The notes below the pieces were generated by a model. That model had not been told where the DNA came from and did no database searches. It worked only from the letters and a program-made list of their open reading frames with translations. A stretch of DNA of 64,000 nucleotides, from NCBI GenBank assembly GCA_020161795.1, contig JAIUOR010000030.1:1-64000 (forward strand), in the 5' to 3' direction. Source of the stretch: Actinomycetota bacterium. Its GTDB lineage: Bacteria; Actinomycetota; Actinomycetes; Propionibacteriales; Propionibacteriaceae. The translations under genes and the position numbers were made by a program. This document shows, piece by piece, positions 23,195 to 30,084 of this stretch (position 1 is the stretch's first letter; each line of letters begins with the position of its first letter).

Positions 23195-24364
23195 GTGGCC
23201 CTCGCCGCGCAGGGGTTCGGGCGTGGCCGGCCCGGCACCGTCACATCCCGGCAGGTGCAGCAGGTGGTCGACCGGATCAGCCAACTGCAGATCGACTCGG
23301 TGAACGTGGCGGTGCGGGCGCACTACATGCCCCTGTTCGCCCGGCTCGGACCCTACGACCGTGCCCTGCTCGATCGGGCGGCGGGACGGGCGCCACGCCG
23401 GCTCTTCGAGTACTGGGGCCACGCGGCCTCGCTGATCGACGTCGGGCTGCAGCCGGCATTGCGGTTCCGGATGGACGGACAGCGCCGGGCCGAGCCCTGG
23501 CCGGCGATCCAGGCCATCCGGGCCGAGCATCCCGGGCTGGAGCAGCAGGTGCTCGACTTCGTCGCCGCCAACGGCCCGGTCACGTCGCGCCAGATCGAAC
23601 ACCCCGAGGATCGCAAACGCGCTCCGTGGTGGAACTGGTCGCAGGCCAAGCACATGCTGGAGTGGCTGTTCGCCACCGGCGAGCTGACCGCGGCCAGCCG
23701 GAACAGCCAGTTCGAGCGCTGCTACGACCTGCCCGAACGCGTCCTGCCGGCGGCCGTGGTGGCGGCTCCGACGCCGGACCGTGCCGAGTCCGCGCGCATC
23801 CTCGTCCGGCATGCGGCCGCGGCGCTGGGCATCGCCACCGACCGCTGCCTGGCCGACTACTTCCGGTTGAGTCTGGCCACCGCCCAGGCCGCGATCGCCG
23901 AGCTGGTTGAGGCCGGTGAGCTGATCGAGACACCGGTGCGCGGCTGGGCTCGGCGCAGCTACCTGTGGCACCAGGCCCGGCTGCCGCGTCGGCTTCAGGT
24001 CGACGCCCTGGTGAGCCCGTTCGACTCGCTGGTCTTCGAACGCTCCCGCTTGGCCGACCTGTTCGGCGTCGACTACCGGATCGAGATCTACACCCCGGCC
24101 GCCAAGCGCCGCTACGGCTACTACGTCTACCTGTTCGTGATGGACGAGACCATCGCCGCCCGCGTCGATCTCAAGGCCGACCGCGCCGCCGGAGCGCTGC
24201 TCGTCCAGGCCTCCTGGCTGGAGCCGGGTGCTCCCGAGGCCGAGACCGCGGCCCGGCTGGCCGGGACGCTTCATTCGATGGCCGACTGGCTGGAGCTGGG
24301 CGAGGTGGTGATCCGCCCGGTCGGAACACTGGCGCCCGCCCTCACCAGAGCCGCCCCGGGCTGA
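23195..24364 (+). CDS. YcaQ/AlkZ-like winged-helix DNA glycosylase family protein
   Basis: 389 residues counted from GTG 23195. Family features are QVVDRISQLQIDSVNVAVRAHYMPLFARLGPYD, LFEYWGHAASLI and LVSPFDSLVFERSR. This is the HTH_42/YcaQ family, whose members AlkZ and YcaQ unhook interstrand DNA crosslinks. Catalytic QxQ: the segment SQLQIDS holds the motif Q-L-Q. The family N-terminus (LSRAALNPAQARRVAL) is encoded upstream of the GTG, back to a CTG at 23156 inside the hpf stop region, so the true start may be non-canonical. The gene ends convergent with the ABC transporter operon. Confidence 0.85.
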   Translation: MALAAQGFGRGRPGTVTSRQVQQVVDRISQLQIDSVNVAVRAHYMPLFARLGPYDRALLDRAAGRAPRRLFEYWGHAASLIDVGLQPALRFRMDGQRRAEPWPAIQAIRAEHPGLEQQVLDFVAANGPVTSRQIEHPEDRKRAPWWNWSQAKHMLEWLFATGELTAASRNSQFERCYDLPERVLPAAVVAAPTPDRAESARILVRHAAAALGIATDRCLADYFRLSLATAQAAIAELVEAGELIETPVRGWARRSYLWHQARLPRRLQVDALVSPFDSLVFERSRLADLFGVDYRIEIYTPAAKRRYGYYVYLFVMDETIAARVDLKADRAAGALLVQASWLEPGAPEAETAARLAGTLHSMADWLELGEVVIRPVGTLAPALTRAAPG

Positions 24365-24399
24365 GACGGCCCGGGGTCTTCGGGTCGGGACTCGCCAGG

Positions 24400-25296
24400 T
24401 CAGCCGATGCGGCCGATGCCGGTGCTCTGCGGGTTGAGACCGACGGTTCCCGCCTGCTGGCGGGCCAGTTCCGGGTTGTCGCTGCGGTGCCGCTCGGCGT
24501 AGGCGGAATCCTCGTCCCCGGCGTGAACCCGGGTCGGGTCGAGCACGCGGGCCAGGAAGGAACGGGTGCGCTCCTCCTTCGGGTTGCCGATCACCTCGTC
24601 GGGCGGACCCTCCTCGACGACGACACCGCCGTCCATGAAGATCACCCGGTCGGCCACCTCGCGGGCGAAGGCCATCTCGTGGGTGACCACCATCATGGTC
24701 ATGCCCTCGCGGGCGAGATCGCGCATCACCGAGAGCACGTCGCCGACCAGCTCCGGGTCGAGCGCCGAGGTGGGCTCGTCGAAGAGCATCATCTCCGGAT
24801 CCATGCTCAGTGCCCGGGCGATCGCCACCCGCTGCTGCTGGCCGCCGGAGAGCTGGGCGGGGTAGGAATGGCCACGGTCGCGGAGCCCCACCTTCTCCAG
24901 GTTCTCCTGAGCGATCCGCTGGGCCTCGGCGCGATCCAGCTTCTTCACCCGGATGAGCGCGATCGTGCAGTTCTGCAGCGCGGTCAGGTGGGGGAACAGG
25001 TTGAATTGCTGGAAGACCATCCCGGCCATCATCCGCAACCGGTCGATGTCGGCATCCGGGTCGGTGATCTCCTCGTTCATGATGAAGACCCGGCCCTTGG
25101 TCGGCTCCTCCAGCATGTTCACGCAGCGCAGCAGCGTGGACTTGCCCGAGCCGGAGGGGCCGATGATGCACACCACCTCGCCGCGGTGGATCGTGGTGGT
25201 GATGCCCTTGAGCACCTCGAGGTCGCCGAAGGACTTGTGGAGGTCGTAGATCTGGATCTCGTCCTCGCGGTCACCGGTGGGGATCTGCTGGGTCAT
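24400..25296 (-). CDS. Polar amino-acid ABC transporter, ATP-binding protein
   Basis: 298 residues. Walker [10 protein letters not shown] (46-54), the Q-loop [11 protein letters not shown], signature LSGGQQQR, Walker [13 protein letters not shown] and the switch His in VVTHEM are all intact, as in GlnQ/HisP-type ATPases. The C-terminal 45 residues after SFLARVLDP form an extra tail. ATG 25296 overlaps the permease stop by 4 bp (ATGA), so the two are coupled. It powers uptake of a polar amino acid, substrate unknown. Confidence 0.93.
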
Positions 25297-26120
25297 CGGG
25301 TTGCCTTCCGCTGCCGGGCTTCCATGCGCCGCACGACGTAACTCAGCGGAAGCGTGATGATCAGATAGCAGAACCCCGCCACCACCAGCGGGGTGATGTT
25401 GGCGTTGGAGTTGGCCATGTCGCGTCCGAACTTGGTGAGCTCGTAGGCGCTGGTGGTCAGGCCGATCACGTAGACCAGGGAGGAATCCTTGGTCATCAGC
25501 ACCAGCTCGTTGGTCAGGGGCGGTGTGATGATCCGGAAGGCCTGCGGCAGCACGATCCGCTGCATCGACATCCCCGGCGGCATGCCCAGGGAGCGGGCGG
25601 CCTCGATCTGGCCCTTCGGGACGGCCTGGATGCCGGCCCGGATGGTCTCGGAGATGTAGGCCGCGGAGACCATGCCGAGCGCCGTCCACACGGTTCCGTA
25701 CGGATCGAAGGGGAACTGGAAGCCCTTCAGCGCGGTGCCCAGCAGGCTGAACGCGAGGAAGACGATGATCGCCGGCAGCCCGCGGAAGAACTCGACGTAG
25801 ATGGTCGCCAGCCATCGGTAGGGGCCCACCTGGGAGAGCCTCATCAGCGCCAGGATCGTCCCCAGCACGAGCCCGAAAACGAAGGCGCCGGCGGTGTAGA
25901 TGATGGTGTTGAGGAAGGCCCGGCCCAGTGCCGGGCTGATCGTCTGGACGACCAGATCGGGCCGGAAGAACACCTGCTGGATCGCCTGGCCGTCGACGGT
26001 GACGATGGCGAGGACGACGATCAGTGCCAGCACGATGTACTGGACGATGCGGATGCGTTGGGCGCGCTTGCGGGGTGACAGCTTCTTCTTGGGCGACGTC
26101 GTCGTCGTGATGGTGGTCAT
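25293..26120 (-). CDS. Polar amino-acid ABC transporter, permease
   Basis: 275 residues from ATG 26120 with GGAGG upstream. A charged N-terminus is followed by a membrane helix at about 25-43 and the HisM/GlnP-type domain with further helices and the cytoplasmic coupling loop [24 protein letters not shown]. Only one permease gene is present, so it should act as a homodimer. It lies between the binding protein and the ATPase in the operon. Confidence 0.92.
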
Positions 26121-26141
26121 CTCGCCTCCGGAGACTGACCC

Positions 26142-26173
26142 GGTTGGAGTCGGCCGGTCGGCCGGCCCCAACC
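26142..26173 (-). terminator. Intercistronic hairpin between binding protein and permease
   Basis: On the transcript an 8-bp outer stem (plus-strand GGTTGGAG at 26142-26149 against CCCCAACC at 26166-26173, one G-U pair) encloses an inner CGGCCG/CGGCCG stem. It lies in the 68-bp gap after the binding-protein stop. Such hairpins commonly stabilise the upstream message or partly stop transcription, giving more binding protein than permease. Confidence 0.5.
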
Positions 26174-26188
26174 CGGGTCGGTGGTGAC

Positions 26189-27034
26189 TCAGCCCTTGAC
26201 CAGCAGGGCCTGGGTGGCGTTGAAGTAGGGATCGGTGAACGGGGCCGCAGCCTGGCGCTCCTCGGTGATGGTGATCGCGGCGGCGCCCAGGTCGCACTTG
26301 CCGGCGGCGAAGACGGCGCCGGAGGTGATCTGGCCGAACTCGATGTCGACGATCTTCTGGGTCACGCCGAGCTTCTTGGCGATCACGTCGACCAGGTCGA
26401 CGTCGAAGCCGATGATGGTCGAGTTGTCCTCGTCGAGGTACTGGAACGGCCGGTAGGCCAGGTGGGTGCAGACGGTGAGCGCGCCGGCCTCGATCAGCTT
26501 CGGCTCGCCGGTGGCCTCGGTGGAGTCGCCGAGCAGGTCGGCCGGGGCGTCGGTTCCGAACCACTTCTGGTAGATGCCGTTGAAGGTGCCGTCGGCCTTG
26601 GCCTCGGCCAAGGCGGCGTTCGCCACGCTGAGCAGGCCGGGGTTGTCGGAGCTGACGTTGAAGCCGTACTGCTCACCGGTGTCGAACTCGGCGACCACCT
26701 TGGTGGTGGGATTCTGCACGGCGAAGTCGAAGAGCACGCCGTTGTCGTTGATGGCGGCATCGGCGGTACCCGCGAGCACCGCGTTGGCGGTGCCCGGCAG
26801 GTCGTCGAAGACCTTGATCTCATAGCCGAACTCGGCCTGGTGCTCCTCGGCGTAGACCTTGCCGGTGGTGTCGGTCTGGACGGCCAGGATCTTGCCCTTC
26901 AGATCGGCCAGGCCGGTGATGCCGGCGGGGGCTTCACCACCTGGCGCCGGAGAGGCGGGCTGCGAATTGGCGCAGCCGGTGAGGACGAGAGCGAGCGCAG
27001 CGGTCGCGCCGGCGGCGCGGAGCATGGACTTCAT
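26189..27034 (-). CDS. Amino-acid ABC transporter binding lipoprotein, circularly permuted
   Basis: 281 residues from ATG 27034 (GGAAGG upstream). The lipobox LTGC makes Cys21 the lipid anchor. The fold is SBP_bac_3, but its halves are exchanged. Residues about 38-160 are what normally forms the second half ([20 protein letters not shown] to [13 protein letters not shown]). After a linker at 161-178, residues about 179-281 are what normally comes first ([20 protein letters not shown], the [14 protein letters not shown] signature at 209-222, [23 protein letters not shown]). Normal relatives have the signature about 40-60 residues after the mature N-terminus. All fold elements are present once, so it should still form two lobes and bind a polar amino acid. 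Confidence 0.9.
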
Positions 27035-27294
27035 GCGGGTCCTTCCTGATCGGGACATCCCGGTGATAGTGCCATTCGATTGTTGCAGTCGTGCGACAAC
27101 CGGAACAGAGCATCCCATCAGGCGTGACGGGCCGGTGGCCCGCCGGGCGCCGGTTCGCCCCGCGAACCGGACCCTCTTCATCGGTGTGGCGGGCCCCCCG
27201 CGGCCCGGGAGGGCTGGGGTTGCAGGGTAGGATGATCTCCGCTGCCGCGCCAGGCGCGGTCTGGATGCGTTGCCCCGATCAGGAAGCGAACACC

Positions 27295-30084
<2,790 letters not shown>

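Follow-up and report, generated by a model that had tools for sequence, protein, structure and literature searches.

A probable natural circular permutation of a Type II amino-acid binding lipoprotein in an ABC importer operon of Actinomycetota

The window analysed here is the whole 64,000-nucleotide stretch (positions 1 to 64,000 of contig JAIUOR010000030.1, assembly GCA_020161795.1) from an Actinomycetota bacterium of the Propionibacteriaceae, listed as G000 among the genomes compared. It contains an operon of an amino-acid permease and an ATPase, as is typical of SBP_bac_3 binding proteins. The first gene of this operon encodes a binding lipoprotein whose halves stand in exchanged order, and is followed by one permease gene and one ATPase gene. 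The operon is divergent from secA, with hpf further along, and its features are as follows:

27040..27047, reverse strand: Shine-Dalgarno-like AGGAAGGA, with the ATG five bases further (read from the sequence)
26189..27034, reverse strand: circularly permuted SBP_bac_3 lipoprotein gene, 281 aa (open reading frame, profile, and comparison with PDB entries and relatives)
26972..27034, reverse strand: lipoprotein signal peptide with lipobox, Cys21 (sequence; the Cys is common to five permuted relatives and normal-order G016)
26555..26923, reverse strand: residues 38-160, the usual second half, made up of lobe 2 and the C-terminal part of lobe 1 and closing with YQKWFG (relatives, PDB matches, AlphaFold2)
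26486..26554, reverse strand: residues 161-183, a weakly constrained linker from the old C-terminus to the old N-terminus, with traces of C-tail and N-spacer (comparison with relatives; dN/dS)
26192..26485, reverse strand: residues 184-281, the usual first half, with the hinge strand ALLVKG last (relatives, PDB matches, AlphaFold2)
25293..26123, reverse strand: amino-acid ABC permease (BPD_transp_1, HEQRo_perm_3TM), 276 aa (profile matches)
24400..25296, reverse strand: amino-acid ABC ATPase, 298 aa, the closest NCBIfam model being GlnQ, below cut-off (profile matches)

No Rfam family scored above its gathering score within the window. Adjoining the operon is a 389-aa protein (23195-24361) with no NCBIfam match at 1e-5, which we take to resemble the YcaQ-like winged-helix family. 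At the site bounded by hpf, the winged-helix gene and secA (window 23195-27301; loci L118-L122 and L160-L179), amino-acid ABC operons vary by species and occur in either orientation, as if they had been swapped in and out.

The permuted open reading frame is free of internal stops and carries the lipobox LTGC, with the matching permease and ATPase genes directly behind it, as the initial annotation had described. That annotation had further claimed that the SBP_bac_3 domain appears with its halves exchanged, and several comparisons agree: Firstly, Pfam SBP_bac_3 covers the whole domain with 106.8 bits (cut-off 26.4) in two stretches, and at DNA level profile positions 97-132 lie upstream of positions 1-92 in one frame. 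Secondly, in the match to PDB entry 4zv1, query residues 184-280 correspond to chain residues 10-103 and residues 39-160 to 109-232; the boundaries first proposed for the halves are right to a few residues (the first half begins at 184 here and at 179 there). Thirdly, among 80 relatives kept of 169 from a genome-contig collection, lobe 1 precedes lobe 2 in 77, the window's order recurs in two (L004 and L005), and one (L039) has lobe 2 alone, with a contig end close by. The family order (start of lobe 1, lobe 2, end of lobe 1) is thus broken, and the order found (lobe 2, end of lobe 1, linker, start of lobe 1) makes the protein a permuted variant of SBP_bac_3. Rotation of the sequence, proposed as a check, merged the match to TIGR01096 from two stretches (114.8 bits, native) into a single one covering positions 23-250 of 250 (125.2 bits); normal-order G016 scores 169 bits unrotated in a single stretch, and the model's cut-off of 256.35 is reached by none of the three, the permuted and the normal-order protein alike falling under NCBIfam cut-offs. 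Each half occurs once: by blastp, one lobe 2 followed by one lobe 1 was found in all 28 full-length permuted frames (five, counting the window, from its own lineage and 23 from another class), with no further copy in any of them, so that the extra full domain named in the initial annotation as a refutation did not appear.

Structure prediction points to an ordinary two-lobed binding protein. AlphaFold2, supplied with an alignment of 33 rows (three permuted proteins, and 10 lobe-1 and 20 lobe-2 fragments of normal relatives, unpaired), gave the permuted protein a pLDDT of 86.1 and a pTM of 0.78, with residues 1-3 and 5-33 below 50; the corresponding values for normal-order L007 were 88.8 and 0.78. 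Ten alignment compositions were tried, and an earlier structure alignment of 57 rows was dropped because lobe-2 fragments had been placed in lobe 1. The structure-prediction check thus returned two confident lobes, which, judged by these scores, should close into the normal clamp, and the main strands and helices form the same series in the permuted and L007 models in rotated order. Foldseek matched the permuted model lobe by lobe (88 columns, 1.1 A) or with poor whole-length fits among the 50 matches listed, as would be expected should the aligner keep to sequence order; the tandem structure 6h30 came top at 20 A rmsd, and no solved structure with the permuted topology was present among those 50. 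The L007 model, by comparison, matched 4zv1 over nearly its whole length (TM 0.77/0.86).

Residues of the binding pocket can be traced by alignment to E. coli GlnBP (GlnH). T70, R75 and D157 are kept as T255, R260 and D97, of which R75 and D157 are presumably the Arg and Asp that clamp the amino-acid backbone; D10, K115 and H156 are replaced by H191, Q53 and N96, the same letters being found in normal-order G016 and L007. The kept and the changed positions together point to an amino acid as the probable ligand, and to no closer identity. The protein therefore resembles AncQR (4zv1), E. coli GlnH and the TIGR01096 family in the homology of both lobes along their length, in its pocket Arg and Asp and in its operon partners, and differs from them in its exchanged halves and in carrying the anchor on the other lobe. 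Purifying selection acts on both lobes: across all 10 pairs of permuted genes, dN/dS was 0.114-0.322 for lobe 2, 0.064-0.524 for lobe 1 and 0.206-1.356 for the linker.

Within the genus, the full-length permuted protein is found in five of 30 genomes (the window's own G000, and G013, G019, G020 and G024, whose proteins are 65-79% identical to the window's), with a match of any kind at E 1e-8 in 26 of the 30. Among 198 genomes of the family, searched at E 1e-20, the short-frame full-length permuted cases are the same five alone, and a sample of 391 genomes of the order, searched at E 1e-40, recovered four of them, with G019 absent among the matches. In the plasmid collection the best 20 of 542 and the best 30 of 1435 records were all two-piece matches, and are known as two-piece only. 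At E 1e-8 the five carriers have no other match to the permuted protein apart from two weak ones in G024, which leaves the permuted gene as the only binding protein known for the operon (the assemblies of G013 and G020 are 88% and 80% complete); a distant normal-order SBP_bac_3 protein is encoded elsewhere in G000.

At the same locus G016, a sister of two carriers, has the normal order, together with a matching signal peptide, permease and ATPase. Its DNA is 85% identical to that of G013 over the upstream and signal region and 83% over the permease and ATPase genes, and the halves between are swapped, with 77% and 81% identity. In 13 other genus genomes the fetched loci carry a different normal-order operon (lobes 36-52% identical), which, in the nine where secA is in view, is co-directional with secA in eight and divergent in one (G028); G029 encodes a normal-order relative (62% and 64%), its contig carrying no secA. 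Two further forms of the domain were seen in these searches. Frames of 736-928 aa in eight family genomes (G039, G031, G046, G030, G051, G034, G081 and G082) match across the junction at 30-34% identity and are probably tandem binding domains fused to a permease. G022 matches across the junction in a contig-cut frame of 376 aa; its lipoprotein frame at L124:4568-5551 (G022:C184) reads lobe 1, lobe 2, lobe 1 until the contig stops, and represents a binding protein in tandem or partly duplicated form.

Phylogenies place the five permuted proteins among normal-order relatives. They form one clade in the lobe 1 and lobe 2 trees (support 100/99 and 96/81), where G016 falls among the normal-order family members, and again with both lobes joined over 77 rows (96/93). 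A second lobe-2 tree does not resolve normal-order G029 from the five, and the permease and ATPase trees need two and at least three changes of order, respectively, counts that do not separate gain from loss of the permuted order. The secA tree scatters the carriers, with G000 beside the non-carrier G018, G013 and G020 beside G016, and G024 apart. A single origin of the five genes is most likely, being favoured by the trees though not by every one, and the best fit is one permutation event, after which operons were replaced, transferred or lost; replacement may have given G016 its normal order back. A chimera of two paralogues was also considered and is ruled out, both lobes of the window protein falling in the same clade.

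With a probability of roughly 87%, we consider the window gene to encode an amino-acid binding lipoprotein of Type II (SBP_bac_3) that has been circularly permuted in nature, serves the permease and ATPase behind it and arose once by duplication and loss in place. A normal-order gene would have undergone tandem duplication where it stood, once in this lineage; the first copy would then have lost lobe 1 in frame, retaining its signal peptide and spacer, and the second would have been truncated after its hinge strand. The resulting chain would run from lipid anchor and spacer through lobe 2, the second hinge strand, the C-terminal part of lobe 1 and the linker to the remainder of lobe 1 and the first hinge strand, and would fold into the usual two-lobed clamp with the amino acid in its ordinary cleft. 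From this topology the lipid tether would now sit on lobe 2, beside the hinge, and only one of the two lobe crossovers would still be covalent. Ligand binding and a transport role, like the duplication intermediate and the anchor geometry, are what we infer for this protein. By eye against normal-order relatives, the linker consists of the old C-tail (GTDAP) followed by the old spacer and pre-strand segment, and the signal peptide and spacer of the permuted gene match those of G016 in place, which is what duplication, loss and truncation would leave. The initial annotation had suggested tandem duplication and loss of both outer halves; the make-up of the linker and the DNA comparison with G016 support that origin, and the losses hold for lobe 1 of the first copy and lobe 2 of the second, but not for the signal peptide, which stays. 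Extracts of PMC3320104 set out permutation by duplication as a general model. In the direct lineage no intermediate of the duplication turned up, the G022 tandem being 41-48% identical and ending at its contig end, though its arrangement shows that such fusions occur in the genus.

The same source, in the extracts concerned, recognises a second route to permutation, in which a gene splits into two half-genes that later fuse in reverse order. Such a history is unlikely here: free half-genes were not found at the genus loci fetched, and the traces of old C-tail and N-spacer in the linker, along with the signal peptide in place, are explained directly by duplication.

A search for the same order in other genomes, proposed on the strength of the single case in the window, uncovered three further permuted lineages beyond the five genus carriers (lineage A). 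A sample of 396 genomes across the phylum (E 1e-30) recovered the window and four further genomes, G545, G578, G599 and G655, the four having matches that span both lobes in frames of 293-331 aa. Lineage B comprises 23 of 197 sampled genomes of the class of G578, full-length and 66-100% identical to the query; one of them, G545, is assembled as one contig of 1,838,614 bases. The permease is next in 22 of its 23 loci (that of G919 ends early). In the six permuted loci whose flank is long enough (G578, G545, G599, G854, G847 and G897), the ATPase gene is followed by hpf, as it is in 13 of 16 normal-order relatives fetched. By eye against normal-order relatives, the linkers of lineages A and B both retain traces of the two old termini. 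The remaining two lineages are known from one assembly each: G655 has the same cut as the window and normal-order relatives in its family (G446, 72%; G592, 65%), and in G830, which has normal-order relatives G810, G826 and G834 in its family (75-79%), the cut comes later, behind the first helix of lobe 2.

Trees of 65 and 77 rows require at least four changes of order. An AU test on a set thinned to 54 rows rejects a clade of A and B (p 1.75e-99), and tests on 65 rows reject B with G655 (6.2e-5), B with G830 (6.9e-77) and A with G655 (2.7e-74). The 54-row tree and AU set, and the 65-row set, omit by choice 12 of 66 rows (eight permuted and four normal), which are not all near-identical and include G811; with the omitted rows restored (77 rows) at least four changes are still needed, with support of 96/93 for lineage A and 63/82 for lineage B. 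In the lobe-1 tree, three members of lineage B (G811, G897 and G847; L193, L224 and L225) join normal-order G875, G841 and G821 (L220-L222) with support of 95/93, a grouping absent from the lobe-2 tree; the two forms may have recombined, there may have been a second event, or the columns may be too few, and whether lineage B is a single event is unsettled. At least two, and probably four, independent permutations have therefore occurred in this family within the Actinomycetota.

The duplication-derived permutant must also be weighed against a decaying fragment left over from a binding protein with two tandem domains like those of GlnPQ, with no working permutant at all. Tandem binding domains exist, 6h30 being the top Foldseek match of the permuted model, and both the junction-spanning frames of 736-928 aa in eight family genomes and the lobe1-lobe2-lobe1 frame of G022 speak for this possibility. 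The GlnPQ tandem indeed contains the same segment of lobe 2, linker and lobe 1 across its two domains; those domains, however, are each complete and in normal order, whereas the window protein is a single domain. Decay is moreover difficult to reconcile with an intact frame in five species, purifying selection on both lobes, frames that stop at the hinge strand, the standing of the permuted gene as the operon's only known binding protein and the keeping of the permuted form in 23 genomes of lineage B, and we regard a remnant as improbable. More improbable again is one ancient permutation common to all permuted lineages, after which the normal order would have returned many times. The cut does fall in one shared hinge loop in lineages A, B and G655, and hpf is close by in both A and B, but the AU tests reject the corresponding clades, each lineage is far closer to its normal-order relatives than to the other permuted ones, and G830 is cut elsewhere. 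An artefact of assembly or sequencing, to which metagenome-assembled carriers (L004 and L005) and the single cases G655 and G830 might be ascribed, has a negligible chance of being correct, since four other species assemblies share the permuted order at 65-79% identity to the window and lineage B includes the one-contig genome G545.

A natural circular permutant, for its part, has precedent among binding lipoproteins of ABC importers. Tp0684 (TpMglB-2), a Type I sugar binder, is described in extracts of PMC4990184 as a natural circular permutation, and is the one natural permuted ABC binding protein among the PubMed Central matches listed; no natural permutant of the amino-acid (SBP_bac_3) family appears in the titles among those matches. 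In the same extracts it is described as binding glucose and undergoing a conformational change, so that permutation is compatible with a working binding protein, and its authors raise membrane tethering as a possible reason for the permutation. Its Type I (cluster B) fold, as given there, has the first three N-lobe strands moved to the C-terminus and a fourth crossover added, whereas the window protein, a Type II amino-acid binder by fold, has its cut in the loop that follows the first hinge strand and loses a crossover. By its profile and PDB sequence matches the window protein is of Type II, not of the Type I sugar fold that defines the Type Ic (cluster Bc) group of Tp0684, and the two permutations are separate events in different fold classes. 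Engineered glutamate sensors with altered topology (Wu 2018) are mentioned in extracts of PMC6747460. They are man-made, unlike the window permutant, which is natural. In these sensors the binding protein itself is reportedly permuted. By analogy, this suggests that a Type II amino-acid binding protein may tolerate permutation.

Natural circular permutations are often deduced by comparing proteins that are only distantly related. In the present case sister species carry the permuted and the normal form at one locus with 77-85% DNA identity, which allows the step to be studied close to its occurrence. Reuse of one hinge loop makes the role of anchor position, folding order and the number of hinge crossovers in ABC importers testable; permutants in several lineages offer a natural test of chain order and membrane anchoring in a transporter, as well as natural templates for permuted amino-acid sensors. 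Much more speculatively, and in our view doubtfully, permutation might be a recurrent and selected means of moving the anchor of Type II lipoproteins from lobe 1 to lobe 2. In Actinomycetota it would then have happened independently four times or more, three times in one and the same hinge loop and once about 36 residues beyond it; docking or tether geometry on the permeases would have changed, and the phenomenon would have gone unseen since domain searches ignore order.

In G578 of lineage B (L183:5284-6231) a second, normal-order binding protein is encoded directly upstream of the permuted gene, and normal-order G833 and G846 have a weaker lobe-1 match upstream; the permease at L183:7343-8593 is a 416-aa open reading frame with a long N-terminal extension, compared with 276 aa in the window.
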